From an uncultured Bacteroidales bacterium (lineage in GTDB: Bacteria > Bacteroidota > Bacteroidia > Bacteroidales > F082): a stretch of DNA of 64,000 nt. Shown piece by piece: positions 2,962 to 22,469 of this stretch. A program made the translations under genes and the position numbers. The notes under the pieces are model-generated. The model saw only the letters and a program-made list of their open reading frames with translations, was not told the origin of the DNA and did no database searches. The stretch lies in assembly GCA_905234765.1 (NCBI GenBank), contig CAJOIF010000015.1:95606-159605 (forward strand), in the 5' to 3' direction. Every line of letters starts with the position of its first letter. Positions within the stretch are counted from its first letter, which is position 1.

Positions 2962-3043
2962 AAAAACTGCGTTTTCCTATAAAATTCACTTTTAAAAAAC
3001 TGCGTTTTCCTATAAAATTTGGCTCCAAAAAACTGCGTTTTCC
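2962..3043. repeat. Three 33-bp-spaced direct repeats upstream of AAA ATPase
   Basis: The unit AAAAACTGCGTTTTCC starts at 2962, 2995 and 3028, exactly 33 bp apart; the first two copies continue TATAAAATT, the third diverges. They lie 55 bp upstream of the ATPase start and may be binding sites or the remains of an element end. A related array with the same period sits beside an ATPase relic at 22338-22469. Confidence 0.85.
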
Positions 3044-3108
3044 GATGGATCCATAACATCAATGATGTTTGTTAGGAATCTGATTTTTGAAAAAAAACAG
3101 CAAAAAAG

Positions 3109-3139
3109 TTTGGATATTGAAAAGTTTGTTATAATTTTG
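3109..3139 (+). promoter_or_regulatory. Bacteroides-type promoter for the lipoprotein gene
   Basis: TTTG at 3109-3112, a 19-nt spacer and TAATTTTG at 3132-3139 match the Bacteroidota consensus TTTG, N19-21, TAnnTTTG. The ATG of the lipoprotein gene follows 24 nt later. Confidence 0.75.
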
Positions 3140-3163
3140 TATCGAAAAAAATATAGTTCAGAT

Positions 3164-4189
3164 ATGAAAAAGAATATTTCAGTACTGTTTTTTGCTGTTT
3201 TTATAGTTTGCTCCTCATGCAGGAAAGACATTGACCTCTATGCGGATTATAAAATAGTTCCAATCGTTTATGGTTTACTTGATGCCAATGCCGATACCAA
3301 TTTCATCAAGATCACGAGGGCGTTTTATGCCCAAAACGACGATGCCACGCAAGTTGCAATGAATCCTGATTCAAGTGATTATCCTGGGAAGCTTGACGTG
3401 CGTCTCACGGAGTTTTGCAATGGTGACAGTATTCGACAAATCATTCTTGATACGATTACCATTAGGAATAAGCAAGAGGGAACATTTTATGCGCCCAAGC
3501 AAAAACTGTATTATACAGCGGAGCGGTTGGGCAAAAACACGAAGACCGACAGCTATTCATACCGTCTTTCGATTGTGCTTCCAGACCGCATTTTGGTTTC
3601 TGATGCAGATATTGTGGGTTCCGACGGTTTTTTTGTGAAAAGTCTTGCTGCCAATTTCTCGCAACAGTATTTCGGCACCAACCGTCCTTTGGAGTTTTAT
3701 CCAGCTATTAACGCTGCCTCATACGATATCACCATGTCGTTCACTTTTAAGGAACAGCGTACCCCGACTTCGGATTCTGTCCCGCGTACAATGTATTGGA
3801 AACTGAATACCTATGATGAGTACTATCTTGCTGCCCATTTGGAGGATGGGTATTATCACGTCACTTATCGGCCAGAGCAGTTTCATGAGATGCTGAGGGA
3901 CTTTATTGGTGCCGACACTTCCATAGCGGGCTTATCGCGCTTCATTGGCGACTATCCTGTGGAAATCACCATTGCGGCGGCAGGGGAAGAGTTGACGCGT
4001 TATATTGAGTGGAATTCGATGGGAGGATATGGTACGCAGGGCGGCAACGACTACACCCTTATCGATGGAGGCATGGGCGTTTTCTCGTCGCGTATGATAA
4101 CTTCGCGAAAGGTTAGATTGGCAGGTACGACAGTGCCCGAGCTTTTGGCGCACCGTAGCTGGTGCTTCAAGTTTTGTGGTGGAGATTAG
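3164..4189 (+). CDS. DUF4249-like surface lipoprotein
   Basis: A 341-residue protein starting at the ATG at 3164, directly behind a consensus promoter. The hydrophobic N-terminus ends in C-S-S-C near residue 19, a plausible lipobox for signal peptidase II. The body (an early I-V-P-I-V-Y-G-L-L-D segment, F-I-K-I-T-R-A-F, a Y-T-A-E-R-L segment, repeated beta-strand patterns) resembles DUF4249 lipoproteins found beside outer-membrane receptors in Bacteroidota, but no TonB receptor is next to it here. It is monocistronic and converges on the methyltransferase gene, overlapping it by 4 nt. Confidence 0.8.
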   Translation: MKKNISVLFFAVFIVCSSCRKDIDLYADYKIVPIVYGLLDANADTNFIKITRAFYAQNDDATQVAMNPDSSDYPGKLDVRLTEFCNGDSIRQIILDTITIRNKQEGTFYAPKQKLYYTAERLGKNTKTDSYSYRLSIVLPDRILVSDADIVGSDGFFVKSLAANFSQQYFGTNRPLEFYPAINAASYDITMSFTFKEQRTPTSDSVPRTMYWKLNTYDEYYLAAHLEDGYYHVTYRPEQFHEMLRDFIGADTSIAGLSRFIGDYPVEITIAAAGEELTRYIEWNSMGGYGTQGGNDYTLIDGGMGVFSSRMITSRKVRLAGTTVPELLAHRSWCFKFCGGD

Positions 4190-4917
4190 CAGGGCTTGGT
4201 TAACTCGGCCATGATGATGGCAGCCGCAACGGAAGCGTTGAGCGACTCCGTCACGCTTTCGCCGACACGGGGAATGGTGATAGGGTGAGTGATGAAAGGC
4301 ATAACCTCGTTTCGGATGCCATGCGACTCGCTGCCGATGACGATGATGCCTTCGTGGTTGCATTTCGTTTCAAACAGGTTGTCCCCATCAAGCAAGGCGC
4401 CGTAAATCGTGTAGCCCTCGTTTTTCTTCTGTGCGAGGAAAGCGGGGAGCTTGGTTTCAAAAACGTTGATTCTAAAGATGGAACCCATCGTAGCTTGGAT
4501 GACTTTGGGATTCCATACTTCCACACAGTCGGGGCTGCAAACGATGTCGTAAATGCCAAACCATTCGGCCGTGCGGATGAGGGTGCCCATGTTGCCTGGG
4601 TTGGCGATGCCGTCCAAGGCAAGGATGTGTCTCGGAGACGGTGACAGTCCTTGTTTTTCGGGGATGTACACCACGGCGAGGATGCCGGGAGGCGTATCCT
4701 GACCGCTCATCTGTGCCATCTGTACCTCAGTAACGGTTTCGGCCTGAGGGAAAAGGTCGTGGCAGGTTTCGGTAACATAAAGTGCTTTGACGGCAAAACG
4801 CGAGTGTAGTAGCTCTTCAACCATTTTTCGTCCTTCAACGACGAAGAGCCCCCATTCCTTGCGGAATTTCTGTTGCCGGAGTGATGCAACCTGTTTTATC
4901 TCGTTCTTGGTAACCAT
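4186..4917 (-). CDS. SpoU/TrmH-family RNA 2'-O-ribose methyltransferase
   Basis: A 243-residue SPOUT methyltransferase using S-adenosylmethionine to methylate a ribose in rRNA or tRNA. The start at 4917 gives MVTKNEIKQVASLRQQKFRK; the longer reading runs into the terminator of rplI. The N-terminal substrate-binding region is followed by the three knot motifs: N-P-G-N-M-G-T-L-I-R-T-A, I-V-I-G-S-E-S-H-G-I and I-P-R-V-G-E-S-V-T-E-S-L-N-A-S-V-A. The target nucleotide cannot be told. A second family member lies at 49146-49916. It lies downstream of the S6-S18-L9 operon, separated by a terminator. Confidence 0.92.
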   Translation of the reverse strand: MVTKNEIKQVASLRQQKFRKEWGLFVVEGRKMVEELLHSRFAVKALYVTETCHDLFPQAETVTEVQMAQMSGQDTPPGILAVVYIPEKQGLSPSPRHILALDGIANPGNMGTLIRTAEWFGIYDIVCSPDCVEVWNPKVIQATMGSIFRINVFETKLPAFLAQKKNEGYTIYGALLDGDNLFETKCNHEGIIVIGSESHGIRNEVMPFITHPITIPRVGESVTESLNASVAAAIIMAELTKPC

Positions 4918-4924
4918 TGGCAAG

Positions 4925-4953
4925 AAAAAGGCTGCCTCACGGATGGGGCAGCC
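4925..4953 (-). terminator. Rho-independent terminator of the rpsF-rpsR-rplI operon
   Basis: On the minus strand GGCTGCC (4947-4953) pairs with GGCAGCC (4930-4936) and is followed by a T run (4925-4929). It lies 27 nt after the rplI stop codon. Confidence 0.8.
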
Positions 4954-4979
4954 CAATTGTTATGAAAAAGTTCTGATGT

Positions 4980-5429
4980 TCATTCGGCGAAGACGGTGAA
5001 GTCGACATCCACGCTCACTTCCTTGTGGAGGCGAATCTTGGCGGTATAGTCACCCAGTTCCTTGATGGCGTCTTCGTTGAGGACGATCTGCTTGCGGTCC
5101 ACTTCGATGTTGGTGGCTTCCTTGATGGCGTTGGCGATCATGATGCTGTTGACCGAGCCGAAGATTTTGCCGGAGGTACCAGCCTTGGCAGGGATTTGCA
5201 GCTTCAGGCCTTCCAAAGCCTTGGCTTTGTCCATAGCTTCATTCTTAATCTTCTCTTCCTTGTGAGCCTGCTGGCGCATTTCCTCGGCCAAGATCTTGCG
5301 GTTTCTCTCGGTCGCCAGGATGGCCATGCCTTGGGGGATGAGGTAGTTGCGGCCGTAGCCGGGCTTCACGGTCACGATGTCATTCTTGTAACCCAAATTG
5401 GTGACGTCTTGTTTCAGAATAATATCCAT
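4980..5429 (-). CDS. rplI: 50S ribosomal protein L9
   Basis: A 149-residue full-length L9, which binds domain V of 23S rRNA near the L1 stalk. The N-terminal rRNA-binding domain carries the family signature (M-D-I-I-L-K, then G-Y-G-R-N-Y-L-I-P near residues 24-33), followed by the long connecting helix rich in Glu and Lys and a C-terminal domain. It is the last gene of the rpsF-rpsR-rplI operon, 18 nt after rpsR, and ends at a clear terminator. Confidence 0.98.
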   Translation of the reverse strand: MDIILKQDVTNLGYKNDIVTVKPGYGRNYLIPQGMAILATERNRKILAEEMRQQAHKEEKIKNEAMDKAKALEGLKLQIPAKAGTSGKIFGSVNSIMIANAIKEATNIEVDRKQIVLNEDAIKELGDYTAKIRLHKEVSVDVDFTVFAE

Positions 5430-5447
5430 GTGTTGTCCTCCTTCAAA

Positions 5448-5723
5448 TTATTTCAAACAGTCAGCTACAAAAGGCATCAGGGCGAGGTGACGGGCACGTT
5501 TGACGGCCTGGGCAACCTTGCGCTGGTATTTCGTGGAAGTGCCGGTGATGCGGCGGGGCAGGATCTTGCCTTGCTCGTTGACGAACTTCAGCAAAAAGTC
5601 GGCATCTTTGTAGTCGATGTACTTGATGCGGTTCTTCTTGAAGCGGCAGTATTTCTTTCTCTTGGTATCTACGGCAATGGGGGTCAGATACTTGATGTCG
5701 TTGTTGTTGTTCACTTGTGCCAT
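5448..5723 (-). CDS. rpsR: 30S ribosomal protein S18
   Basis: A 91-residue S18, which pairs with S6 on the platform of the small subunit. Family features are visible: the C-R-F-K-K segment near residue 26, [23 protein letters not shown] and the basic Q-V-A-like [13 protein letters not shown] tail. It is the middle gene of the operon, 27 nt after rpsF and 18 nt before rplI. Confidence 0.98.
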
Positions 5724-5750
5724 GTCTCTTTCAATTTTAAGGGTTCAACA

Positions 5751-6119
5751 TTAGGCTTGCGCTTCGTTAGTGGCAGGAGCGTTCTCGGCTTCTGCTGCTT
5801 TCTTGCGTCTCTTCTCGTTGTAGGCGACGGCGTGCTTGTCAAGCTTCACGGTGAGGAAGCGCATCACGCGCTCGTCACGCTTGAGCTCGGTCTCGACATC
5901 GGCGATGACATTACCCTCGGCCTTGTACTCTATCAACTGATAGAAGCCCGTGGATTTCTTCTGGATGGGGTAGGCCAGCTTACGCATGCCCCAGTTCTCT
6001 TCATGAACGATCTCTGCACCAGCACCGGTCAGGTGATCTTCATACTTCTTTACCGCTTCCTTCATCTGATCTTCAGACAAAACGGGAGTTAAAATGAAAA
6101 CGGTTTCGTACTGATTCAT
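5751..6119 (-). CDS. rpsF: 30S ribosomal protein S6
   Basis: A 122-residue S6 with the usual N-terminus ([12 protein letters not shown]), the G-M-R-K-L-A-Y-P segment and the F-Y-Q-L-I-E-Y beta strand, then an Ala/Glu-rich extension of about 20 residues typical of Bacteroidota. It heads the S6-S18-L9 operon. A TATCTTTG promoter element sits about 57 nt upstream of the start, within an A/T-rich leader. Confidence 0.98.
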
Positions 6120-6175
6120 AATTAGTTGATTGTTAATGATTTAATTAAATAGTGTTTTTACTTAAAAAGCGGGTG

Positions 6176-6183
6176 CAAAGATA
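6176..6183 (-). promoter_or_regulatory. -7 element of the rpsF operon promoter
   Basis: TATCTTTG on the minus strand matches TAnnTTTG. Only a weak TTGC partner lies 18 nt upstream. The position, 57 nt before the rpsF start, and the A/T-rich leader fit a ribosomal promoter. Confidence 0.6.
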
Positions 6184-6230
6184 CGAATTTTTTCTTTACC
6201 CGCAACACCTGATTCAAAAAAAAGTTTGTT

Positions 6231-8252
6231 TTAGTGCTGGATTGCCACTTTTCGGATTGTGATAGTCTTGTCACCAGCCACTTTCACAAAATAGATTCCT
6301 GTCGAGAAGCCGCTGGTCGGTATCTCGTGGTAAGAGCCTTGTATTATGCTGTTGTAGCAGACTTTCCCTTGAAGGTCATATATAGTCAGTTCTGCGTTGT
6401 GCATGGGTTTGCTGGCTGAAACTGTGATGAATGCAGAGGCGGGGGTGGGCGTAATCGTCAGAGACACTTCATTGGATTCAGCGATGAAGTCAGGCATGGC
6501 GGGCAGTTCGGTGTACCAGATGCCACCAGCCATAGGAGAAGCGTAAATCAACTCGCCATCGATGCAGATGTCAAGGATGGGTCCTTCCATAGGGATGTCT
6601 TCCATCTGTTGCCATTCATTGCAATGGTCGTATTTCAGGTATATGGAGCCGTCTTCGCAGCCCACGGCGATGATAGTATCCGTCGTGGTGATGCGCCTGA
6701 TGGTGGCATCGCTGGGCAGCGCGTCGATGCTGTGCCAGGTCTCACCCATGTCGTCGCTGAAATGAAGGCCATGTTCGCGAGTGCCAAGATACAATCCATT
6801 GTCGTGATAACGCAAACTGGTGTAGTTGACGCCTTCGAACGGTGAGTTGAGGACTTGCCAGTTGGAGCCTTGCTCGCGGCTGTGGCGCAATACGCCCTCG
6901 TAGGAGACATGGTACATGATGCTACCGTCCCAGGTGAGGTCAACAACGTCAATATCAAGTGGCAGGCAGGTGGGTACGTACCATTGCTGGCCAAGTCCGA
7001 AGGAGACATACATCCTGTCCTTGCTTCCCGCAATGATCTGCGAATCGCAGCGCACCAGACTCTGAAGCCATTGGTTCTCAGGCAGCCCAGAGCCCGCCGA
7101 ACTGAATGATGTGCCTCTGTTGGTGGAGAGGAAACTACCCAGCATGTCGGTGCCGATAAACACGTTGTTGCCTTCCACCATCATGCCTCGTATCTCCACC
7201 GTCCCGATGTTGGTGCTTTGTGTCCAAGTGCTGCCATTGTCGGTGTAGAACATGTCGGAGCCATGGGTGGCGGCCAGAATACGACCGTTGCTGGTGCCGA
7301 TATTGCCCACAGAGGCTAGGAACGCAGGTGTGTTGGTGCGTATCCAGCCGGTTCCATCGCTGTTGCCGCGGTAGATGTGTCCATCGGTGTCGCCGACGAA
7401 GATGTGTCCATCGCGAGCGTCCATGCACCAGAGGTTCTTTGACGCAAGGTTGGAGTTGAAGTCCTGCCAAGTGACGCCGTTGTTGTAGGAGACGTAGACA
7501 CCCTGTCCTATGCAAGCGGCATAAAGTGTGTCGCCGAGGTGAGCATAGCCTTTGGCTTGCTTGTTGAGGTTGGCGCTCGTCCAGGTGTCGCCGTTGTTGC
7601 TGGAAGCCATGACACCTTGTCCAAGTACGGTGGCGAAGACCTTTCCGTTGTGGCAGTAGATGCCGAGCACATCGTTGTTTAGTCCACTATTGCATGACTC
7701 CCAGGAGGCTCCGTCATTGAAGGAACGGTAGACCCCGCGCCTGTAAGTGGCGATGAAAATGGCGTTTTCGTTGTCGGACATGAAATAGGGATAGCGCACG
7801 TCGCTGGGGAAGATGCCCGTGATGTACTCGCCTTGGGTGCCGTTGATGGATTGATAGACACCTTGAACGTAGGTGGAGGCAAGGAGTGAGCCGTGGTGAA
7901 CCAGTATGTGCTTGACATAATGGTTATGCAGGTAAGGATCAGGTGTCCAGTGAAGACCGCCATCGGTGGTGCGGAAGATATTCTTGTCGGTGGCGAGGAA
8001 GACTGTGTCGTTATATGTGACGAGACATTTTGTGTCGCACGAGGTGAGTCCGTTGTTGCGGAACTCCCAGTTGAGGCCTTGGTCGCTGCTCACCAAGACG
8101 CCACCGCCTGTAGCAGCATAATAGAGGCTATCGGTACAAAGAATGCTTCTGACATAACGACCTTGGGGCCCGTTCATGGGATGCCATTGTGCTTTCGCAT
8201 CATAGAATAGCAGCGTGAGAGCAAAGAGAAGGAATAGGGCTCTGTTTTTCAT
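6231..8252 (-). CDS. Secreted beta-propeller protein with T9SS sorting domain
   Basis: A 673-residue exported protein. Residues 1-21 form a signal peptide ending in A-K-A. The body consists of repeated 35-45-residue blades with the sialidase/BNR-like pattern S-x-D-x-G-x-x-W (for example S-S-D-Q-G-L-N-W, T-T-D-G-G-L-H-W, S-F-N-D-G-A-S-W, S-N-N-G-D-T-W), as in exo-alpha-sialidase and sortilin-like propellers. The last 75 residues are a type A T9SS sorting domain (I-T-P-T-P-A-S, I-Y-D-L-Q-G-K, S-T-G-I-Y-F-V-K-V near the end), so it should be exported by the Por machinery encoded in this window. It follows wecB by 1 nt. Catalytic sialidase residues are not evident, so an enzymatic role is not claimed. 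Confidence 0.88.
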   Translation of the reverse strand: MKNRALFLLFALTLLFYDAKAQWHPMNGPQGRYVRSILCTDSLYYAATGGGVLVSSDQGLNWEFRNNGLTSCDTKCLVTYNDTVFLATDKNIFRTTDGGLHWTPDPYLHNHYVKHILVHHGSLLASTYVQGVYQSINGTQGEYITGIFPSDVRYPYFMSDNENAIFIATYRRGVYRSFNDGASWESCNSGLNNDVLGIYCHNGKVFATVLGQGVMASSNNGDTWTSANLNKQAKGYAHLGDTLYAACIGQGVYVSYNNGVTWQDFNSNLASKNLWCMDARDGHIFVGDTDGHIYRGNSDGTGWIRTNTPAFLASVGNIGTSNGRILAATHGSDMFYTDNGSTWTQSTNIGTVEIRGMMVEGNNVFIGTDMLGSFLSTNRGTSFSSAGSGLPENQWLQSLVRCDSQIIAGSKDRMYVSFGLGQQWYVPTCLPLDIDVVDLTWDGSIMYHVSYEGVLRHSREQGSNWQVLNSPFEGVNYTSLRYHDNGLYLGTREHGLHFSDDMGETWHSIDALPSDATIRRITTTDTIIAVGCEDGSIYLKYDHCNEWQQMEDIPMEGPILDICIDGELIYASPMAGGIWYTELPAMPDFIAESNEVSLTITPTPASAFITVSASKPMHNAELTIYDLQGKVCYNSIIQGSYHEIPTSGFSTGIYFVKVAGDKTITIRKVAIQH

Positions 8253-8253
8253 T

Positions 8254-9399
8254 TTATTTCGTCGCGTTGATGAGTAGCATTTGTTCTAGCATGAACTCCG
8301 CCGCATGGCCGTCGCCGAATATCTTTGGGAAATCAGTCGGTGGATTTGCCTCGAAATGCTTCCACGCTTTCATGATGCGGTTCTCGTCGGCATCAGCGAG
8401 GATGGCATTGCCCGTTTCCACGATTTCCACCCATTCGGTCTCGGGTCGCAGGATGATGCAGGGCTTTTTGAAAAAATAGGCTTCCTTTTGCACGCCGCCC
8501 GAGTCGGTCATCACCAATTGAGCGTGACGCTCCAAGGCGATCATCTCTAGGAAGGAGACTGGAGGGGTGAGGCTGATGCTCGAACTGTTGAAGATTTGCG
8601 TCTGTTTCTCGCTATTTAGGTTGGTTTTCAGCAGCTTGGCCGTCCTGGGATGTAATGGTAGCACGATTTGACATTCCTGTGATAATTGTATTAAGGCGCT
8701 GAAAATCGCCCTGAGTCGTTCAGGATGGTCGGTGTTGCTGTCGCGGTGGATGGTGGCTAGGATAAAAGGTTTATTCTCTATTCCTAACTTGCTGATAATT
8801 TGTGTTTTTTCTTCGGCAATGTTGGCAAAATGCAAACTATTGTCGTACATGATGTCGCCGCAGTGATAGACTTTGGGATTGTCAATGGTGTAGGGACCGT
8901 TGTTATCCATTGGGAAGCCTTCGCGTTTTAGGTTCTCGACGCCAGCGAGGGTGGGCGAGAACAGCAGGGTGGAACAGTGGTCACAAACGATGCGGTTGAT
9001 TTCCTCAGGCATGGCTTTGTTGAACGAGCGCAGTCCCGCCTCGATGTGGACGATGGGCACATGGATCTTGGCGGCTGCTATGGCACCAGCGAGGGTGGAA
9101 TTCGTGTCACCATACAGCACAATGAAGTCAGGACGTTCTTTTTGTAGTATCTCTTCAATGCTTTCGGTCATGCGGGCAGTCTGTACGCCGTGGGAGGCCG
9201 AGCCGACATGGAGGTTGTAATCAGGGCGCGGGATGCCGAGCTCGTCGAAAAAGACCTGTGACATGTTGTCGTCGTAGTGTTGTCCCGTGTGGACGATGAC
9301 TTCTTGGATGCGGTCGGAAAAGTGGTTCTTGATGGCACGACTCAACGCAGCCGCCTTGATGATTTGGGGTCTGGCCCCTATGATGGTAACGATTTTCAT
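8254..9399 (-). CDS. wecB: UDP-N-acetylglucosamine 2-epimerase (non-hydrolysing)
   Basis: A 381-residue enzyme converting UDP-GlcNAc to UDP-ManNAc, a precursor for surface polysaccharides. Family hallmarks: G-A-R-P-Q-I-I-K near the start, H-T-G-Q-H-Y-D at about residue 37, G-D-T-N-S-T-L-A-G-A near 95, H-I-E-A-G-L-R-S-F near 117, P-E-E-I-N-R and T-D-S-G-G-V-Q-K-E near residue 297. It lies between radC (15 nt upstream) and the T9SS propeller gene (1 nt downstream), all on one strand. The ManNAc dehydrogenase that often accompanies it is not in the window. Confidence 0.96.
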   Translation of the reverse strand: MKIVTIIGARPQIIKAAALSRAIKNHFSDRIQEVIVHTGQHYDDNMSQVFFDELGIPRPDYNLHVGSASHGVQTARMTESIEEILQKERPDFIVLYGDTNSTLAGAIAAAKIHVPIVHIEAGLRSFNKAMPEEINRIVCDHCSTLLFSPTLAGVENLKREGFPMDNNGPYTIDNPKVYHCGDIMYDNSLHFANIAEEKTQIISKLGIENKPFILATIHRDSNTDHPERLRAIFSALIQLSQECQIVLPLHPRTAKLLKTNLNSEKQTQIFNSSSISLTPPVSFLEMIALERHAQLVMTDSGGVQKEAYFFKKPCIILRPETEWVEIVETGNAILADADENRIMKAWKHFEANPPTDFPKIFGDGHAAEFMLEQMLLINATK

Positions 9400-9414
9400 G
9401 GGTGTTTAGTAGGT

Positions 9415-10110
9415 TTATTCCATTTCGCCATGTTCCCTGAAACTGTAATAACCGCCTCTTTTTAGGATGATATGGTCTATAACGGTGATGTCGAGTAAGA
9501 CGCCAGCGGCGGTGAATTTTTTCGTGAGTCGACGGTCGTCGACGCTGGGGCTCAGGCTTCCTGACGGATGGTTGTGTGCGATGATAATGCGTGTGGCTCC
9601 GACATTGAGAGCGTTTTTGAACACGATTCGTGGGTCGGCAATAGTATGGGTCATGCCTCCGTTGCTGACGCATTCGATTTTCAAGATGGTGTTCGATACG
9701 TCAAGATACATGACAATGAAGTGTTCTTGGCTGAAATCGTCAATGCAAGGTAGGAGCCGTTTGTATGCGTCGGCAGAATCTCTCAATCTGTCGGGAGTGT
9801 TGGCCTCGGTGCCCAATAGGCGTCTCCCCAACTCTAAACCAGCCATGACGGTGAGGGCTTTGGCCTCGCCGATTCCTTTGTGTTGCATCCAGTCTTCAAT
9901 GCTGAAGTCGGAGAGGGTGATGAGATTGTTGCCTGCCGATTCGAGGATGGTGCTGGCCAGCCCAACGGCGGTTTGGTCACTGCTGCCCGAGCGGATGAGA
10001 ATGGCCAGAAGTTCAGCATCGCTCAGGGCGGTCTTGCCTCTGTTGAGCATCTTCTCGCGCGGTCGGTCGCTGAGAGCCCATTCCTTGATGCATTTCTTTT
10101 CTTTGCTCAT
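9415..10110 (-). CDS. radC: RadC family JAB-domain protein
   Basis: A 231-residue protein when started at the ATG at 10110 (MSKEKKCIKEWALSDRPREK), which fits a promoter 22 nt upstream; the longer reading crosses that promoter. An N-terminal helix-hairpin-helix region (H-K-G-I-G-E-A-K-A near residue 65) precedes the C-terminal MPN/JAB+ domain with the metal-binding H-N-H-P-S-G-x8-D motif near residue 178. RadC proteins were first linked to DNA repair but their true biochemical role is unsettled. The gene lies upstream of wecB, probably cotranscribed. Confidence 0.93.
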   Translation of the reverse strand: MSKEKKCIKEWALSDRPREKMLNRGKTALSDAELLAILIRSGSSDQTAVGLASTILESAGNNLITLSDFSIEDWMQHKGIGEAKALTVMAGLELGRRLLGTEANTPDRLRDSADAYKRLLPCIDDFSQEHFIVMYLDVSNTILKIECVSNGGMTHTIADPRIVFKNALNVGATRIIIAHNHPSGSLSPSVDDRRLTKKFTAAGVLLDITVIDHIILKRGGYYSFREHGEME

Positions 10111-10131
10111 GTCGGGTTGGCTATTACTGCG

Positions 10132-10165
10132 CAAAGGTACACTTTTTTCGCATACTGCAAGCAAA
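10132..10165 (-). promoter_or_regulatory. Bacteroides-type promoter of radC
   Basis: On the minus strand TTTG (10162-10165), then 22 nt, then TACCTTTG (10132-10139). The -33 side overlaps the T run of the rpsT terminator. Confidence 0.6.
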
Positions 10166-10193
10166 AAAGCCTCTCCTAACATGTAGAAGAGGC
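10163..10193 (-). terminator. Rho-independent terminator of rpsT
   Basis: On the minus strand GCCTCT (10188-10193) pairs with AGAGGC (10169-10174), followed by TTTTTT (10163-10168). It lies 32 nt after the rpsT stop codon. Confidence 0.8.
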
Positions 10194-10224
10194 AACTGAC
10201 TCTATGATGAAAATCAATCTTTTC

Positions 10225-13829: not shown

Positions 13830-13847
13830 GTCAGCAATTAACATGTA

Positions 13848-15233: not shown

Positions 15234-15269
15234 TCAGTTATCAGTTGGCAGTTATCAGTTGTTCAGTTA
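15234..15269 (-). repeat. ACTG short tandem repeat at the miaB start codon
   Basis: On the minus strand a run of AACTGATAACTG-like units (about 8-9-nt period) ends immediately at the miaB ATG. The same type of run precedes the GT4 gene at 27886-27921. Confidence 0.6.
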
Positions 15270-15280
15270 ATGCAGGTTGC

Positions 15281-15331
15281 TGAGCCTGTCGAAGCACCGT
15301 CATTCTATCGGTCGGCCCTTCGACTGGCTCA
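15281..15331. repeat. Palindromic repeat with TGAGCC(T/A)GTCGAAG arms
   Basis: TGAGCCTGTCGAAG (15281-15294) and CTTCGACTGGCTCA (15318-15331) are reverse complements with one mismatch and a 23-nt loop. A related half-site encodes the C-terminus of the gene ending at 49913. Confidence 0.75.
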
Positions 15332-15377
15332 GGGAGCTTAACCTGTTAAATAGGCCTGCAAAAATACGGTTTTTTAT

Positions 15378-16340
15378 TCAGCTGTAGATCAAACCGATGA
15401 TGTCACGCAAGATTTCGTTATCCTTGTCAAAGGCAGGTGCTGTTTTTGTGCTGCTGCCTTGCAAGAGCTGTTCGGCCTGACGGATTGTCCCAGGTTCAAG
15501 GCAGTCGGAGGCGATTTGTGCCTCGGTGATAATGGATTTTGCCTCGTCGATATGCAATGCAATGTCGACATTACCCCAAGGGAATTGGGCCTTTTTCATG
15601 GTCTTGAATTGTCTCCAGCGGCCGAAAAGGAAATCTCGAGACGAAATTTCCGACATGATGTCTTGAACCTCATTCATATTAATAAAGGTGTCGAAGTCAA
15701 GCATAGTGGCCTTACCGCCGTAAACCTTTTCAAATGAGGCAATCAAAGGTTGTTTGATGTTCTCCGAGGTCAGTTCGGGGACAAGTTCGCTGAGGTTGAC
15801 AACCCGGCTGGCCACGCTCTTCACACCGTTTTTCATCAGTTTGGCTTTGTCGACGGTGAGGTAACGTTGCATCATGGCGCCGTCGGTTTTGATGAGGATG
15901 GTGCCGTGGTGCAGGTTGTTCCTTTGCCCTTTTGCGAAGGCGTTGCCGCTGAACTTTCGACCCTGGCAGGTGAGGTCGTTACGCCCTGAGATTTCGGCCT
16001 GCAAGCCGTAGGAGAGGAGTGCGTCTTGAATGACGGAAAGCTGTTTTTTCACGTCATACATTTTTTTGTCAGCAATGAACGAGAAGTTGATATTGCCCAA
16101 ATCATGGTAGACGGCACCGCCGCCCGTGCCCCGCCGCATGAGGTGACCGCCTTCGTTGAGCAAAAGCTGCACGTTGCATTCCGAGTAGGGATTTTGGTTG
16201 TAGCCGATGACGACGGTCTGTCGGTTTTTCCAGAGGTACATAGTGACGGTGTCTTCCTCTTGATGCTCTGTGAGATATTGCTCAACGGCGCGGTTGAGGA
16301 AAGGGTTGTATTGGTTGCTGATGAGGGTTTGTAACTTCAT
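15378..16340 (-). CDS. lplA: Lipoate-protein ligase
   Basis: A 320-residue enzyme that activates free lipoate with ATP and attaches it to the lipoyl domains of 2-oxoacid dehydrogenases or GcvH. Family features: the early S-N-x-Y-N-P-F-x-N segment, R-R-G-T-G-G-G-A-V-Y-H-D-L-G-N near residues 69-83 (the lipoate/lipoyl-AMP loop), G-R-N-D-L near 120, G-x-K-F-S-G-N-A near 128 and H-H-G-T-I-L near 144. It has the C-terminal accessory domain. It lies downstream of tRNA-Glu, separated by a terminator. Confidence 0.95.
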   Translation of the reverse strand: MKLQTLISNQYNPFLNRAVEQYLTEHQEEDTVTMYLWKNRQTVVIGYNQNPYSECNVQLLLNEGGHLMRRGTGGGAVYHDLGNINFSFIADKKMYDVKKQLSVIQDALLSYGLQAEISGRNDLTCQGRKFSGNAFAKGQRNNLHHGTILIKTDGAMMQRYLTVDKAKLMKNGVKSVASRVVNLSELVPELTSENIKQPLIASFEKVYGGKATMLDFDTFINMNEVQDIMSEISSRDFLFGRWRQFKTMKKAQFPWGNVDIALHIDEAKSIITEAQIASDCLEPGTIRQAEQLLQGSSTKTAPAFDKDNEILRDIIGLIYS

Positions 16341-16352
16341 GGCGTTGACAAT

Positions 16353-16377
16353 AAAAAAGCCCGCATTTTGGCGGGCT
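16353..16377 (-). terminator. Rho-independent terminator after tRNA-Glu
   Basis: Minus strand AGCCCGC (16371-16377) pairs with GCGGGCT (16358-16364), followed by a T run. It separates the tRNA from lplA. Confidence 0.8.
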
Positions 16378-16382
16378 TAGTT

Positions 16383-16459
16383 TGGTAGTCTCTCCGGGAT
16401 TTGAACCCGAGTTACCAGGATGAAAACCTGACGTCCTGACCAGACTAGACGAAGAGACC
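16383..16459 (-). tRNA. tRNA-Glu (anticodon TTC)
   Basis: On the minus strand the sequence begins GGTCTCTTCGTCTAG and ends CCA encoded in the DNA. The acceptor stem GGTCTCT pairs with AGAGACT, the T arm GGGTTCAAATCCC is canonical and the anticodon loop is T-T-T-T-C-A-T, giving anticodon TTC. Length is 77 nt including CCA. It is followed by a terminator. Confidence 0.96.
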
Positions 16460-16551
16460 ACTTCGTGTCATTTTTGACGCTCGATACCTACAACACTTTT
16501 GGGCAAAAAAAACGGATAATTGTTTTAATTTACTGAAAATCAATATGTTAA

Positions 16552-17352
16552 TTATTCAAAAATCAACGAAACTTGGAATAGTTTGTTGCGTAATTGAGCG
16601 ATGGGAGCAGTGTACATAAAGGCTTCACCTTTCATGATGTCAAGAAAACCATAGCTCATTTTAACCTCAATGCCCATTTTGAACCATTGGTTGTAAATGT
16701 CAAAACCTGTGCCAAGCTCGGCGGCGCAATCGAAACGTTTGGTGACGAGGTTGTTGATGAATTCCTGGCCAGAGGCATCCGTCATTTTGTTGTCTTTTTG
16801 GGAAGCCAAGTCGAGTTTTGGGTTGACGCCACCAAAGACATAAGCGCCGATATTGTTATAGCGTTTCGAACGGTATTTGATGTTGAGCGGAAACTCGACG
16901 AAGGTGGTACCGATGGATTTGGTGATGTCTCTCATGGTGATGTTTCCATCGAGGTCTTTGATGGCGATGTCGTAGCGCATTCTGCGCTCGCTGAAACTCA
17001 GCGAAGGGATGAAACGCAAGTCGAAATAACGCCCCAAACGCTTGCTGCCGATAATGCCCACGGTAAAACCAGGTGTCTGCAACGTCTCGATGTTGTAGAT
17101 GGAGATGTACTGGGTGTTCGGGATGCTGATAGGGCCATTTGGCCACGATTCGGGGTCGAGTTCGAGATTTTGGTAGTTATCGACGGTCTTCACCGTGTAC
17201 ATCATCTGGTTGTAAGCCAACAAAAAACCGAAGTGATAAGGCTCGTTTTCGTAGTTGGCCAAATAGCGGATGGTTCGACGTTGGGCTTGTGTGGGGATGG
17301 CAATGACGCTGAGCATCAATGCGATGGCGAGTATTCTTAATGCTTTTTTCAA
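16552..17352 (-). CDS. porT: PorT-family outer membrane protein of the type IX secretion system
   Basis: A 266-residue predicted outer-membrane beta-barrel. Residues 1-23 are a signal peptide ending in T-Q-A-Q. The mature part has alternating hydrophobic strands with Y-H-F-G-F-L-L-A-Y-N near residue 40, G-I-I-G-S-K-R-L-G-R-Y-F-D-L-R-F-I-P-S-L-S-F near 100, E-F-P-L-N-I-K-Y-R-S near 153, and a final strand ending in F. PorT/SprT is a T9SS component needed for export or assembly of the machinery. The gene follows ubiE, an arrangement I recall as common in Bacteroidota, and has its own promoter element at 17417-17424. Confidence 0.88.
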   Translation of the reverse strand: MKKALRILAIALMLSVIAIPTQAQRRTIRYLANYENEPYHFGFLLAYNQMMYTVKTVDNYQNLELDPESWPNGPISIPNTQYISIYNIETLQTPGFTVGIIGSKRLGRYFDLRFIPSLSFSERRMRYDIAIKDLDGNITMRDITKSIGTTFVEFPLNIKYRSKRYNNIGAYVFGGVNPKLDLASQKDNKMTDASGQEFINNLVTKRFDCAAELGTGFDIYNQWFKMGIEVKMSYGFLDIMKGEAFMYTAPIAQLRNKLFQVSLIFE

Positions 17353-17416
17353 GAGGTTCGGGTTTTAATTCAAAATGTAACGCGATTCGTTTTGATTTAT
17401 TGCGCTATAATGGCGG

Positions 17417-17424
17417 CAAAAATA
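17417..17424 (-). promoter_or_regulatory. -7 element upstream of porT
   Basis: TATTTTTG on the minus strand, 65 nt before the porT ATG and just after the ubiE stop; no clear TTTG partner at the right distance. Confidence 0.45.
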
Positions 17425-17441
17425 GGAAAAAAGGCAATGTG

Positions 17442-18137
17442 CTAGCTTTTTACAGCAGAATAAAGTGTGGCAATACCAAAGCCAAAACGCTGAACAGTGC
17501 CTTTTGAGAAGCCATAAAGGGAAAGTGTTCGTGTGAAATCAACAGGCTTTGGAAACCGCTCTACTGATTCGGGCAAGTAGGAATAAGCCCAATCGTCTTT
17601 CGAAACCTGTTTCCCGATTTTTGGAAGTATTTGCTTGAAATACAATCGATAAGCCTGTTTGATAGGAAACCTTTCGGGCATCGAGAACTCCAGAATATAA
17701 ACTTGTCCATTAGGCTTCAAGACGCGACAAATCTCTGAAAGACCTTGTTGCAAGTCCTCGAAGTTACGCACGCCGAAGGCCACCGTGACGGCATCGAAAA
17801 ATTGGCTCTCGAAAGATAAGGCGGCAGCATCGCCAAGACGTAAATCAATTTGGTTTTCAAGGCCTTGCTTCTTGACCTTTTCTTTTCCTATGGCCAGCAT
17901 CTTTTCGGAAATGTCCAGGCCGATGATATGGGCTTGTGGGTTGTATTTTGCCAAAGCGATAGCCAAATCCGCCGTGCCCGTGGCAAGGTCGAGAATGGTT
18001 TCGGGCTGGCTTTTGGCGACGGCTTTAGCGGTTTTTTTGCGCCATGTCTTGTCGATGTTGAGAGATAATAAGTGATTGAGTCGGTCGTACTTTGGCGAGA
18101 TGCGGTCGAACATTCTGGCGATGGGGGAATCACTCAT
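17442..18137 (-). CDS. ubiE: Demethylmenaquinone methyltransferase
   Basis: A 231-residue class I SAM methyltransferase catalysing the last step of menaquinone synthesis (menG/ubiE type). The ATG at 18137 (MSDSPIARMFDRISPKYDRLN) overlaps the GT9 stop by 8 nt; a start at 18155 is possible. Motifs: I-S-P-K-Y-D-R-L-N near residue 13, L-D-L-A-T-G-T-A-D-L-A (SAM loop) near 50, G-L-D-I-S-E-K-M-L near 73, G-D-A-A-A-L-S-F near 98, V-A-F-G-V-R-N-F near 113 and L-E-F-S-M-P near 147. Bacteroidota respire with menaquinone, so demethylmenaquinone is the expected substrate. Confidence 0.95.
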   Translation of the reverse strand: MSDSPIARMFDRISPKYDRLNHLLSLNIDKTWRKKTAKAVAKSQPETILDLATGTADLAIALAKYNPQAHIIGLDISEKMLAIGKEKVKKQGLENQIDLRLGDAAALSFESQFFDAVTVAFGVRNFEDLQQGLSEICRVLKPNGQVYILEFSMPERFPIKQAYRLYFKQILPKIGKQVSKDDWAYSYLPESVERFPKPVDFTRTLSLYGFSKGTVQRFGFGIATLYSAVKS

Positions 18138-19137
18138 GACCGACCAGTTTTTCAATGATTTGGCTCGGTGTGATGCCGTTTAAGCAAGCGTAATCACCTC
18201 TGAAACAAGGCTTATTGCCGTAAACAGAGCATGGCCGACAAGGCAGATCGACTTGGATGCAATCATTTGGGTTTTGTTTCCAGCCCAAGAAGCCCGCGTA
18301 AAGATGCGTTTCACCCCAAACGGAAACGACTCTCGTCCCGACCAAAGATGCCAAGTGCATGTTGGCGGAGTCCATAGAGAGCATTACATCCAATTGGCCC
18401 ATCAAAGCAAGTTCGCCTTTCAAACCTTGCTGACTTTGTGCTGGTTGCACATTGGGATATTTGGCGTGTAGTTCCGCGATTTGCCGTTTTTCCTCTTCGC
18501 CGCCGCCAAAAAGGAATATAGTAGTGTTTTCCCTCTGACTCAAAGCCTTGATGACTTCTTCCATTTTCTCCATAGGGTAAACTTTGGCGGGATGTTTGGC
18601 AAAAGGCGCAATGCCAATCCATGTCTCATTAGTCGCTTTTTGCGTCTCGCAAAAAGAAGAATAGTCAAGCTTTGTGAATTGTGGTTTAATTGGGAAACCT
18701 AGTTCTTCCAATACTTTAGCATAACGCTCAAACGAGGTGGCCTGCTGCTCGAAAACCTTGTTTTTTTGCCGCGTTAAAGCCTTTTTCCCTTTGCGTCCCT
18801 TGTCGATGACGGCAATTTGCCACCCCGACATTCGACAGTTTAATCTCAGTAGAATGGAGCGTAATACATTATGGAAGTCGGCGACGCGGTCAAATTCTTC
18901 GTAGAGGATTTCTCTTATAAGACGATTTAAGCCCCAAAAGCCTTTGTGCCGACCTTTCAGGTCAGCAGCGAAGAAATGCACATTGTTGGGCAAGAGTTCA
19001 AATAAAGGTCTCGCCATCTCTCGGCTGAGTATGGTGATGTCCCAATCGGGGTATTGTGTGGCCATGTCATAGACGACAGGCACCGTCATGGCGATGTCGC
19101 CCAAGGCCGAGAACCGTATGACAAGGAGCTTTTTCAT
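18130..19137 (-). CDS. Glycosyltransferase family 9 (heptosyltransferase-like)
   Basis: A 335-residue GT-B glycosyltransferase of the ADP-heptose:LPS heptosyltransferase family, likely adding a sugar to the lipid A core. The N-terminus V-I-R-F-S-A-L-G-D-I-A-M-T-V-P is the family signature. The C-terminal domain has I-G-I-A-P-F-A near residue 170, F-L-F-G-G-G-E-E near 208 and S-M-D-S-A-N-M-H-L-A near 252. It overlaps the DUF4254 gene by 4 nt (ATGA) and ubiE by 8 nt, so DUF4254, GT9 and ubiE form one transcription unit. Confidence 0.92.
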   Translation of the reverse strand: MKKLLVIRFSALGDIAMTVPVVYDMATQYPDWDITILSREMARPLFELLPNNVHFFAADLKGRHKGFWGLNRLIREILYEEFDRVADFHNVLRSILLRLNCRMSGWQIAVIDKGRKGKKALTRQKNKVFEQQATSFERYAKVLEELGFPIKPQFTKLDYSSFCETQKATNETWIGIAPFAKHPAKVYPMEKMEEVIKALSQRENTTIFLFGGGEEEKRQIAELHAKYPNVQPAQSQQGLKGELALMGQLDVMLSMDSANMHLASLVGTRVVSVWGETHLYAGFLGWKQNPNDCIQVDLPCRPCSVYGNKPCFRGDYACLNGITPSQIIEKLVGHE

Positions 19138-19745
19138 TTTTGCCCGTAAAGCACCGGATTGAGTGCGGGGTCGTTGTACATCTTCATCTGCTTATAGACC
19201 TTCATTACCTTTTCGCCCTTCTTGTAACACTCCATCAGCTGGTCGATGGCGGTGCAAAGGTCAGTGTTTTGCTCTTGTAAAACACGCAGTTTTTCCTCAC
19301 ATTTCGCCTTGTGTTCCTCGCTGACATCGGCGCGCTCCACCTCGGCCTTCATGTGGTAAATTTTCAGTTGCAGAATCGAAAGGCGGTCAATGGCCCAAGC
19401 GGGACTTTCCGTGTTGAGCGTGGCATTGGGCTGTGGTTCAACCTTTTGGAAAAGCAGTTGGTAATAGCCGTCAATCATCTCCACGATGTCGGTGCGGTCT
19501 TGGTTCGACTTGTCGATACGGCGTTTCAAGGCCAAGGCCGCCACTGGATCGATATTTGGGTCACGGATGAGGTCTTCCAAATGCCACTGCACCGTGTCAA
19601 TCCACGCCTTATTATAAAGGTACCATTCGATGGTCAGTTTCTCGTAAGGGTTTTCGCAAGGATGGTCCACGTCGTCAAACTTGTGGTAGTCGGCGATGGC
19701 TTGGTTGAAGATGGGGAGGATGGGTTCGGTGGAAAGGATGATCAT
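19134..19745 (-). CDS. DUF4254 protein
   Basis: A 203-residue soluble, largely helical protein with the DUF4254 pattern: N-Q-A-I-A-D-Y-H near residue 14, E-W-Y-L-Y-N-K-A-W-I-D-T-V-Q-W-H-L-E-D near 40-60, D-P-N-I-D-P near 63, K-R-R-I-D-K-S-N-Q-D-R-T near 75 and M-K-A-E-V-E-R near 130. Function unknown; in Bacteroidota it is often coupled to GT9 genes, as here by a 4-nt overlap, which suggests a role in LPS core or surface glycan assembly (inference). Confidence 0.88.
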   Translation of the reverse strand: MIILSTEPILPIFNQAIADYHKFDDVDHPCENPYEKLTIEWYLYNKAWIDTVQWHLEDLIRDPNIDPVAALALKRRIDKSNQDRTDIVEMIDGYYQLLFQKVEPQPNATLNTESPAWAIDRLSILQLKIYHMKAEVERADVSEEHKAKCEEKLRVLQEQNTDLCTAIDQLMECYKKGEKVMKVYKQMKMYNDPALNPVLYGQK

Positions 19746-19760
19746 GGCAGATGATTTTAT

Positions 19761-19831
19761 GACACGGGACGCGGGACTTCAGGACATGGGACAACCCTGT
19801 CTCGCAGTCTCGCGTCTCGCAGTCTCGCGTC
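19761..19831. repeat. Palindromic repeat family copy 1 (GACGCGGGAC/GTCTCGCGTC)
   Basis: The left half has G-rich units such as GACACGGGAC and GCGGGAC; the right half has their complements, GTCTCGC-AGTCTCGCGTC repeated. The two halves can fold into a long hairpin. It lies between the DUF4254 gene and the aminotransferase. Related copies are at 21082-21154 and 45705-45786. Confidence 0.8.
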
Positions 19832-19834
19832 TTT

Positions 19835-21041
19835 TTAGTGCAGCTTGGTCAACGCGGCCTTGATGCGCTTCACTGCCTCGATGAGTTTGTCCTCGGAGGT
19901 CGCATACGACAGGCGGATGCAGTCGTCGTTGCCGAAGGCGTTACCGGCCACGCAAGCCACATGGGCGTTGTAAAGCAGCCACATGCAGAGGTCGTCGCTG
20001 CCCTTGATGACGGTCTCGCCGTCGGTCTTGCCGTAGAACGACTTCATTTCGGGGAACACGTAGAAGGCACCAGCGGGAGTGTTGCATTTCACGCCAGGAA
20101 TCTCGTTCAGCAGCTTCACGAAGGTGTCGCGGCGGTGGCGGAAGGCCTTCAGCATCTCTTGGATTTCCGTGGAGTTCTCGGGGCTGAGTTCCATGGCCTT
20201 GGCAGCGGCGGCTTGTGCAATGGTGCAGATGCCGGAGGTGATTTGGCCTTGGATCTTGTTGGTGGCTTTCACAATGGCTTGGGGAGCAGCGATGTATCCG
20301 ATACGCCAACCCGTCATAGCATAGCCTTTGGCAACGCCGTTGACGAGAACAAGGCGGTCCTTCAGGAACTCGAACTGGCCCATAGTCTCGTGCTTTTGTT
20401 CATATTGTATGAACTCATAGATTTCATCGGAGATGATAATGATGTTCGGGTATTTTCTCAACACTTCGGCAATGGCGGTAAGTTCGGCTTTGGTGAAGAC
20501 GCTGCCGCTGGGGTTGCAAGGCGTGTTGAGCATGAAGACCTTGGTCTTGGGTGTGATGGCCTTTTCGAGTTGCTCGGCAGTAACCTTGAAGTCGTGCTCG
20601 ATGTCGCTCTTGATGATGACGGGCACGCCGCCAGCCAACTTCACCATTTCGGGGTAGGACACCCAGAACGGCGCGGGAATGATGACCTCGTCGCCGTCGT
20701 TGACGACAGCCAGCAGCACGTTGTTGATGGCCTGCTTGGCGCCGTTGGAAACCAGAACGTCGGTGTCCTTGTAGTCGAGGCCGTTGTCGCGTTTCAGTTT
20801 GTTGGCGATGGCCTTGCGCAGTGCGGGTGTGCCAGGTACAGGCGGGTAGTGCGTGTCGTTATTGTTGACGGCATTGATACCGGCTTGTTTGGCCGATTCG
20901 GGCGTGTTGAAGTCGGGTTCGCCGATGCTCAGGCTGATGACGTCGATGCCTTGGGCCTTCAGCTCGCGGCTCTTGTTGGTCATGGCCAGCGTTGCACTCA
21001 GCCATGTTCAAAACTCTGTTGGAAAGGATGATTTCGCTCAT
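19835..21041 (-). CDS. Class I aminotransferase (aspartate aminotransferase type), N-terminal frameshift
   Basis: The main frame (19835-20983, 382 residues) is a PLP-dependent fold-type I aminotransferase: S-L-S-I-G-E-P-D-F-N-T-P, Y-P-P-V-P-G, S-N-G-A-K-Q-A, N-T-P-C-N-P-S-G-S, S-D-E-I-Y-E and V-A-K-G-Y-A-M-T-G-W-R-I-G-Y with the PLP lysine. It lacks the usual first 20 residues. An ATG at 21041 in another frame encodes MSEIILSNRVLNMAE, the expected N-terminus, and the two frames would join around 20996 if two bases were added or one removed. Either the sequence has an error there, or translation starts at 20983. Both sides carry copies of the palindromic repeat. Confidence 0.9.
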
Positions 21042-21081
21042 GATTTATGTTTAAATGTTGATTGTTTAATTGTTGTTGTTT

Positions 21082-21154
21082 GACGCGAGACTTCGAGACG
21101 CGAGACACGGGACTTTTTGTTGTCTCGTAGTCCCGTGTCCCGCAGTCCCGCGTC
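21082..21154. repeat. Palindromic repeat family copy 2
   Basis: GACGCGAGAC, GAGACGCGAGAC and ACGGGAC on the left are answered by GTCTCG, GTCCCGTGTCCCG and GTCCCGCGTC on the right around a TTTTTGTT loop. It lies in the leader of the aminotransferase gene, between its promoter and start codon. Confidence 0.8.
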
Positions 21155-21164
21155 TTTGAAAGGG

Positions 21165-21172
21165 CAAAGGTA
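21165..21172 (-). promoter_or_regulatory. -7 element upstream of the aminotransferase
   Basis: TACCTTTG on the minus strand. If used, the transcript leader would be about 115 nt and would contain the whole palindromic repeat 21082-21154. Confidence 0.5.
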
Positions 21173-21326
21173 AGCCTTTTTTCGATAGGGTCGGCAGAAT
21201 AACGCGAAAAATAGAATATGCGTGCTAAATCCCCGAAATTTTCCGAGTTTTAGCTATAAAATAGCGATTCGAGTGCTAAAACAGTAAAAAAGTGACGGTT
21301 TTAGCTACTGAATCCGAAACTTTTCG

Positions 21327-21334
21327 TAGTTTTG
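21327..21334 (+). promoter_or_regulatory. -7 element of the EcsC-like gene
   Basis: TAGTTTTG, 33 nt before the ATG at 21367. Upstream lie TTTTAGCTA direct repeats at 21248 and 21299 and a TTTTAGC/GCTAAAA inverted pair, possible operator sequences. Confidence 0.5.
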
Positions 21335-21366
21335 CCCAAAATAGATATTTTTTGAAAATACAAAAT

Positions 21367-22065
21367 ATGTCAACGTCATTTGTGGAAAAAGCAATTAAAG
21401 CGGCAATGAACCTTCCTGGGGTGAAAGTAGATCGTGATGGTTTTTTGCAGAATAATTTCCGAAAATATGGGAATTCGGAACAATTGAGTTCCAAAAGTAC
21501 TCGTGAGATTTACGGTGACAAAGAAATAGATGAAGTTGCTAAAGCTGTTGTTAAGCGTCATATAACAGAAGTAACAGCTTTATCTGCTGCATCTGGATTG
21601 CCAGGTGGTTTATGGGCGATTCCTGCATCAATTGGAGACCTTTCAAATTTTTATGCTCAACTGTTAATTACAGCACAAAAACTTGCGTATGTCTATGGAA
21701 TGCCTGATATTTTAGATGGAAAAGATGATTTGGATGAAAACGCATACCAAACATTAATTGTTTTGTTAGGCGTGGCTGCTGGAGTGGAAGGAGCTAGTCA
21801 AATGTTTGCTAAAATTGCTCAAGGAGCGGTAAAACAATATGCAAAAAAAATAGCAGCAAAACCAGCTTCTAATATGATTAAGCAAATCGTTACAAAAATA
21901 CTTGAGTTTTTGGGAAAGAAGTCAACAGATAAAGCGGTGGAAGGTTTTATTAAAAAATCAATTCCTGGTGTATCAGCTATAATTTCAGGTGCTTTGACTT
22001 ATGCATCATTTAGGCCGATGACTAAAAGATTGAAGAAAGAACTTAAGAAGGATATAGTTTTATAA
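21367..22065 (+). CDS. EcsC-like helical protein
   Basis: A 232-residue protein from the ATG at 21367, behind a -7 box. A longer in-frame start at 21292 would cross the promoter. The middle has A-S-G-L-P-G-G-L-W-A-I-P-A-S-I-G-D near residue 75-91 followed by L-I-T-A-Q-K-L-A-Y-V-Y-G, which resembles EcsC-family proteins, whose biochemical function is unknown. Other glycine/alanine-rich amphipathic helices (G-V-A-A-G-V-E-G-A, S-I-P-G-V-S-A-I-I-S-G) suggest membrane association. The gene is more A/T-rich than its neighbours, which may mean transfer. It stands alone. Confidence 0.65.
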   Translation: MSTSFVEKAIKAAMNLPGVKVDRDGFLQNNFRKYGNSEQLSSKSTREIYGDKEIDEVAKAVVKRHITEVTALSAASGLPGGLWAIPASIGDLSNFYAQLLITAQKLAYVYGMPDILDGKDDLDENAYQTLIVLLGVAAGVEGASQMFAKIAQGAVKQYAKKIAAKPASNMIKQIVTKILEFLGKKSTDKAVEGFIKKSIPGVSAIISGALTYASFRPMTKRLKKELKKDIVL

Positions 22066-22117
22066 AAATGGAGAAATTCCTCTGAAGTATGGTTTCCAGT
22101 TAATATAAGGTGGTGAA

Positions 22118-22270
22118 CTATAAATACGCCGCATAATACACCGGCAAACAAGTAACAACCTCGTCTTTTAGATAGTCCTTGGTATAAAGCAAAATGCGCT
22201 CGCCAATGCGCGAAGGATATTTTTTGCAGAACTCGTCCAAGGATTTGTGGAGATTATAAGGGCGTTGTTT
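22118..22270 (-). pseudogene. C-terminal relic of an AAA/DUF4143 ATPase
   Basis: Reading the minus strand toward the stop at 22118-22120 gives about 50 residues: P-Y-N-L-H-K-S-L-D-E-F, Y-P-S-R-I-G-E-R-I-L-L-Y-T-K-D-Y and a final C-L-P-V-Y-Y-A-A-Y-L. This matches the C-terminal end of AAA/DUF4143 ATPases (compare Y-M-P-V-Y-D-V-M-F-L in the intact gene at 1579). A stop codon and unrelated sequence precede it, so the rest of the gene is gone. A 33-bp repeat array remains on its 5' side. Confidence 0.7.
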
Positions 22271-22337
22271 TACTTGTAAAAATTGAAAAATTGTAATCTA
22301 CTGTATATCTTTTTGTTAATACATATTTTTCAATTAT

Positions 22338-22469
22338 CGCAAAATGTTTTTCGCCTAAAACTGCACTTTTCGCAAAATCTTTTTCGGCTGAAACGACAGT
22401 TTTCGCAAAATCTTTTTCGTCCAAAACTGCACTTTTCGCAAAATGTTTGTTGGTCAAAAACGGCCTGAA
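22338..22469. repeat. Four 33-bp tandem repeats beside the ATPase relic
   Basis: CGCAAAATNTTTTTCG starts at 22338, 22371, 22404 and 22437, exactly 33 bp apart, each followed by an AAAACTGCACTTTT or AAACGACAGTTTT block. The array is contiguous, without spacers. Its core AAAACTGC-(A)(C/G)-TTTTC and period match the repeats at 2962-3043. Confidence 0.88.

Follow-up and report, generated by a model that had tools for sequence, protein, structure and literature searches.

Direct-repeat arrays at the promoters of AAA_14-DUF4143 ATPase genes: predicted private operators that differ between protein clades

What could two arrays of short direct repeats with the same 33-bp period be doing in one 64-kb stretch of Bacteroidales DNA (64,000 nucleotides, hereafter the window), one in front of an intact ATPase gene and the other in front of the remains of a second? 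The intact gene encodes an AAA_14-DUF4143 protein. According to the accessible parts of two reports (PMC12988326, PMC13356809), the function of the DUF4143 ATPases is unexplained though they are among the commonest candidate defence genes. The PADLOC type of the gene, PDC-S01, is a single-gene phage defence candidate. It is reported to be the commonest single locus of rumen genomes (10,358; PMC13356809) and to rank fourth among the defences of prokaryotes, without experimental validation (PMC12988326). The accessible parts of both reports describe PDC-S01 without mention of upstream arrays, and a literature search, which did not reach most subscription papers or any bioRxiv preprints, returned no publication that deals with arrays at DUF4143 or AAA_14 genes. 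Here we describe the arrays as a real, clade-wide regulatory architecture, for which sequence comparison makes binding and repression by the ATPase the most likely prediction: the array is probably a private operator of the ATPase gene, to which the ATPase would bind and so repress itself.

Arrays beside the window ATPase gene and its relatives

The original prediction had placed three repeats of 33-bp spacing before the intact gene and a second such array, with a related core, at a C-terminal ATPase fragment. Tandem Repeats Finder (TRF) recovered both with period 33 (Table 1): array A with score 122, 87% matches and 2.5 copies, its cores AAAAACTGCGTTTTCC starting at 2962, 2995 and 3028 and its near edge 54 nt from the ATPase start codon (2907), and array B with score 161, 83% matches and 3.4 copies. 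The third-ranked tandem array of the window scored 89 and lies within open reading frame (ORF) 6231-8252. The remnant next to array B (22121-22279(-)) is 77% identical (E 2e-24) to the last 53 residues of an ATPase encoded at a related locus, L005 (11016-12344), and that gene carries the same array upstream as array B. Since the remnant matches an ATPase with an array of the B type, arrays A and B belong to two different ATPase subfamilies with related cores, and they are two cases of one rule rather than copies of one element.

Table 1. Positions of the arrays and associated features in the window
Feature	Position	Strand	Description	Basis
AAA_14-DUF4143 ATPase gene	1579..2907	(-)	442 aa, intact; PADLOC PDC-S01	Pfam, PADLOC, model, conserved residues
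Predicted promoter box TATTTTTG	2930..2937	(-)	fits TAnnTTTG; 30 nt ahead of start codon	
Array A	2962..3043	(-)	three cores, GGAAAACGCAGTTTTT in gene orientation, 33-bp spacing	
C-terminal remnant of second-subfamily AAA_14-DUF4143 ATPase	22118..22279	(-)	53 codons + stop	match to L005
Array B	22337..22448	(-)	period 33; cores GCGAAAAGTGCAGTTTT / GCGAAAACTGTCGTTTC in gene orientation; distal fourth copy degenerate	

The association was measured without reference to any motif, as the best 16-nt self-match at shifts of 20-60 within the 180 nt upstream of a gene. Relatives in genome contigs were represented by the best 80 of 267, near-duplicates included, and came from Bacteroidales, Treponema, Clostridia, other Bacillota and one Verrucomicrobia. 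The best upstream shift was 32-35 in 74 of these 80 closest loci, and a score of at least 13 was reached in 70, of which 67 had a shift of exactly 33. Among control ORFs, 65 of 641 scored at least 13, with scattered shifts (7 at 33), and several of the high-scoring ones proved to be further ATPases that have their own arrays. Of 76 regions on the downstream side of the ATPase, 9 reached this score, none at shift 33. When the upstream regions of 67 related genes, excluding the window itself, were dinucleotide-shuffled and scanned at shifts 20-70, none of 670 shuffles reached 16/16, 2 reached 15 and 12 reached 14.

Paralogs were followed in three genomes, one of which (G005, about 3.5 Mb) holds at least 58 PF13635 (DUF4143) matches. 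Among the matches listed, 46 of 58 genes in G005, 16 of 22 in G002 and 5 of 8 in G003 were examined, 67 in all. The 220 controls were reduced to 131 by removing 74 ATPase-like ORFs and 15 ORFs with an ATPase's upstream region. A score of at least 14 was found for 45 of the 67 DUF4143 genes against 8 of the 131 controls (Fisher p 8e-20), distributed as 34/46, 7/16 and 4/5 over G005, G002 and G003, and a score of at least 15 for 38 against 2. The claim that arrays accompany AAA/DUF4143 genes is borne out for these sets.

Paralogs within one genome differ in array motif. Moreover, when genes were grouped by P-loop spelling, which is not a tree, the period was 23 (once 46) in 6/6 genes of the KWCGK/KYCGK group and 22-23 in 5/12 GPRQ genes; GIRR genes had an array in 0/3, and the remaining groups had mostly 32-33. 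The array period (22, 23 or 33 bp) and the motif follow the protein clade. Of eleven hand-picked plasmid and phage loci, eight scored at least 14, including those of Collinsella, Glaesserella, Vibrio and Acinetobacter, and the Fusobacterium and R. albus loci scored below 14.

Gene restriction, flanks and mobility

Twenty genomes, chosen because they hold such ATPases, were scanned with two exact patterns of two repeats each. They gave 15 arrays in 13 of the 20 genomes (one array in 11 genomes, two in G001 and G017), the reversed control pattern gave zero matches in the same genomes, and the exact pattern was unmatched in 7 of the 12 genomes of one of the two search sets. Behind 14 of the 15 arrays a full-length ATPase begins 16-63 nt after the last matched repeat. 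The fifteenth, locus L193 (G017:C38:25484), stands directly before the last 31 residues of a decayed ATPase; it comes from another phylum and has the same deletion design as array B, and an array with a C-terminal ATPase remnant is met twice independently, in the window and in G017. The refuting condition named at the outset, arrays equally frequent away from such ATPases, did not hold for these patterns: in the 20 genomes both lay at ATPase genes only, one of them decayed. Three array patterns run against 2.9 million viral contigs matched 3, 7 and 0 stretches, of which one (L266) is such an array with the ATPase behind it and the others are mostly coding or simple sequence; viral targets of the array motif were discarded as a candidate, L266 alone of the 10 matches having an ATPase behind it. 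Gene neighbours were compared at 57 loci and no family was present in more than four, which leaves the ATPase as the only constant partner of the arrays.

Do gene and repeats, then, travel as a unit, as originally proposed? Homology between the window and locus L001 begins at the outer array edge (3046) and ends at 1571, 8 nt beyond the stop codon, and so takes in array and gene. The upstream flanks differ among the window, L001, L002 and L003-L005. Array plus gene is the stretch common to these relatives, and array plus remnant was met twice; this part of the proposal holds, whereas no element ends were found. Gene and array move or persist as a pair. That the array is itself the end of a mobile element moving the gene nevertheless seems quite improbable to us. 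The limited homology and differing flanks would suit such an element, as would the lack of any such ATPase within 1.5 kb at the window lipoprotein locus in G131 and G006 and the presence of relatives on plasmids (61 records) and phages (12 records). However, when the 400 nt behind each gene were scanned for the motif of its own array, 8 matches came from 4 of 71 genes only, two of these genes being the same locus and 3 independent, and neither a transposase nor a constant neighbour was present at the 57 loci; the single array in most matching genomes also counts against it. Furthermore, the downstream flank of the window recurs in L002 and L004, further out and separated by an inserted ATPase_2 gene, so that a rearranging region explains the flanks equally well. 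A transposable element with the motif at both ends was rejected as a general rule on the downstream count, and transposon-like multiplication on the number of arrays per genome. Of the three roles first suggested for the repeats, operator and ATPase target site fit best, and element ends find no support.

Repeat geometry and the promoter

Consecutive repeats are spaced by exactly 33 nt in 149 of 170 cases, the motif words behind these spacings having themselves been found with a 31-35 nt spacing rule. In orthologous units of the window clade, positions 11-15 are 98% identical, the 11-nt spacer (positions 16-26) 44% and positions 27-32 87%, positions 0-10 being conserved by construction of the search. 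A spacer of fixed length and free sequence points to protein-protein geometry on the DNA.

The repeats overlap or abut the predicted core promoter. At 36 of the 49 Bacillota loci that have two or more repeats, the best sigma70-like -10 box precedes the last repeat by exactly 12 nt. A -35 box is present at 46, and at 40 of these it falls within a repeat, the previous repeat serving as -35 box. A sigma70-like pair was also present in 102 of 255 shuffles, and the evidence is the constant offset rather than the presence of boxes, with start points inferred. In Bacteroidetes the -7 box has the consensus TAnnTTTG. All 20 of 20 Bacteroidales relatives have such a box 28-41 nt ahead of the start codon, against 61 of 4000 shuffles, and in 11 of the 20 relatives it falls within a repeat, 8-9 nt after GAAA. 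The repeats would hence compete with RNA polymerase, through two different promoter codes.

The same geometry bears on an array that acts as RNA, whether as leader structure or as CRISPR-like array. Variable spacers of fixed length would agree with it, but the start point inferred at the last repeat in those 36 Bacillota loci would leave most of the array untranscribed, the spacers have only 11 nt and are 44% alike between orthologs, and an Rfam search of window positions 1-26000 matched only a tRNA; we regard this explanation as extremely improbable. A CRISPR array proper was rejected on its spacers of about 11 nt and on the lack of any neighbour family in more than four of 57 loci.

The ATPase as candidate binder

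If the array is an operator, which protein reads it? Among the 70 of 144 genes with at least three clear copies, motif similarity correlates with protein similarity (Spearman coefficient 0.57 overall, 0.73 within and 0.42 between phyla; 0/300 permutations), and in two pairs, orthologs that belong to different phyla agree over the whole 14-nt core. Shared descent accounts for part of the correlation within phyla. The nearest described regulation is, by analogy and from the accessible part of PMC12255303, that of RptR, a dedicated 79-residue repressor of an E. coli defence island, whose binding sites are three direct repeats placed over the -10 box. It lends some credit to a separate, host-encoded repressor that recognises these promoters. 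RptR, however, has one conserved site type (TAGCTA), while here motif and period vary by clade and the constant gene is the ATPase-nuclease itself. Moreover, no neighbour family recurs beyond four loci, paralog motifs differ within one genome, which would call for as many repressors, and orthologs of different phyla share their motif, all of which make a separate repressor improbable.

The window protein matches AAA_14 and DUF4143 in Pfam (E 1.2e-23 and 6.7e-19) and the PADLOC PDC-S01 profile over 439 of 442 residues (E 2.8e-176). In 56 sequences K32, D94, E95, E344, D370 and K387 are invariant and E385 is conserved in at least 90%; these make up intact Walker A/B and PD-(D/E)XK motifs, the nuclease assignment being our own and backed by a statement in the accessible part of PMC12988326. 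The structure model (predicted template-modelling score, pTM, 0.88; mean predicted local distance difference test, pLDDT, 84) comprises an AAA+ domain, a helical lid, a probable winged helix (~236-312) and a PD-(D/E)XK-like C-terminus. A PDB sequence search gave no relative at E 0.01. The top Foldseek match was 2qby, Orc1/Cdc6 on origin DNA (E 5e-6, TM only 0.27), and with VIA-align the archaeal STAND-type ATPases 2qen (PABY2304) and 2fna (SSO1545) were the best structural matches, ahead of Orc1/Cdc6. Orc1/Cdc6 proteins have repeated sites next to their own gene. A likeness to them may lie in an AAA+ module plus a putative winged helix; the window family differs by its extra nuclease-like domain and by sites that lie in the gene's promoter.

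In the mechanism that we propose, the ATPase (AAA+ module, winged helix and PD-(D/E)XK-like nuclease domain) would bind the repeated core from a single face of the DNA, each repeat taking up one protomer or one dimer in phase with the next (33 bp being about three helical turns and 22-23 bp about two), with AAA+ oligomerisation assisting. With repeats that lie over or next to the core promoter, an occupied array would shut off the gene's own transcription. The promoter would be released once binding is lost, for instance because the ATPase is occupied at another place, possibly on invading DNA.

Several observations weigh against this proposal. In G005, G002 and G003, 22 of the 67 DUF4143 genes have no array or an undetected one; among further non-redundant DUF4143 genes 13 of 38 reach score 14 and 25 do not, and in an even Bacillota draw 5 of 22 do so (three at 39-40 bp) and 17 do not. 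With so few in the even draw, the array trait belongs to certain clades, and as a rule for the whole family the original association fails. Between phyla, mean motif similarity rises with protein similarity only from 8.3 to 9.8 of 14. The winged-helix stretch is the weakest part of the model (pLDDT 49-85), and in residue-motif covariation, from an alignment whose 82 rows weigh as 23 at 80% identity, its columns are slightly enriched (p 0.016-0.06, uncorrected), with the top covarying column for motif position 1 lying in the nuclease domain. R269 covaries with motif position 9 in Bacillota (Fisher p 2e-5), but on the tree five independent pairs gave one in agreement, none against and four equal; as a specificity residue it was suggested and set aside, being inseparable from descent. 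Finally, in 9 of the 20 Bacteroidales relatives, the window clade among them, the promoter box follows the last good repeat at a distance of 39-40 nt and is not inside it.

This last point, together with the promoter box in the second-last repeat at L021, L034 and L036, also speaks for an array that the ATPase binds for another main job, as a loading or resting site, for selfish-gene maintenance or copy control, or as a tether, the promoter overlap being a by-product. The many paralogs in one 3.5 Mb genome and the retention of an array with a C-terminal remnant in two unrelated hosts would fit such a role. The strict offset of the -10 box and the repeat serving as -35 box in Bacillota, by contrast, are what an operator would lead one to expect, and no motif copies were present at far flanks; we consider another main job rather unlikely.

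Autorepression through a private operator may be part of a larger design, which we put forward tentatively as a possibility: orthogonal, self-recognising DNA-binding ATPase-nucleases with clade-cognate arrays, forming dozens of insulated circuits in a genome with as many paralogs, in which the array would be both operator and resting platform for a filament or ring of the ATPase, and immunity would be triggered when the ATPase leaves its own array for foreign DNA. A clade-specific private site makes the biochemistry of these ATPases directly testable, as binding site, oligomer spacing and regulation would be readable from sequence. The family moreover holds a large number of naturally paired proteins and sites, from which one could work out how DNA is read by an AAA+/winged-helix protein, and orthogonal repressors for use as tools might come from it as well.

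Further repeats were observed beside related genes. One DUF4143 gene of G005 (L112, G005:C2:116337) has a 23-bp array upstream and three copies downstream, and in the DUF4143 genes of L247, L249, L256 and L257 direct repeats are replaced by palindromic sites (e.g. TTTTATGCGCATAAAA) that recur at about 32 bp or at 39-40 bp. ATPase_2 (PDC-S27) genes likewise have upstream repeats, of GTGTCCACGAAA or GGTTAGCGCAC at 53-54 bp, in L002 (7458-9164), L003 (7351-8508) and L004 (7354-8956). They differ from the arrays described here in the motif GTGTCCACGAAA, paired as inverted halves, and in L002 the repeats lie on both gene sides; L004 has a GTGTCCACGAAA remnant behind an ATPase_2 gene whose own array bears another motif. 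Window positions 1528-1534 are without the ATPase_2 gene and repeats present in L002 (7380-9255) and may be an empty site; no clear target duplication was seen between the two. Elsewhere in the window, a tblastn search matched one DUF4143 protein weakly at 41056-41205(-) (E 8e-4), by chance or as a distant relative. Repeated GTGCTAAA / TTTTAGC words at 21200-21330, possibly another operator-like array, lie upstream of ORF 21379-22065, for which a Pfam search gave no match, and tandem repeats of the GTCTCGCAGTCTCGC type occur at two distant places, 19799-19832 and 45755-45786.

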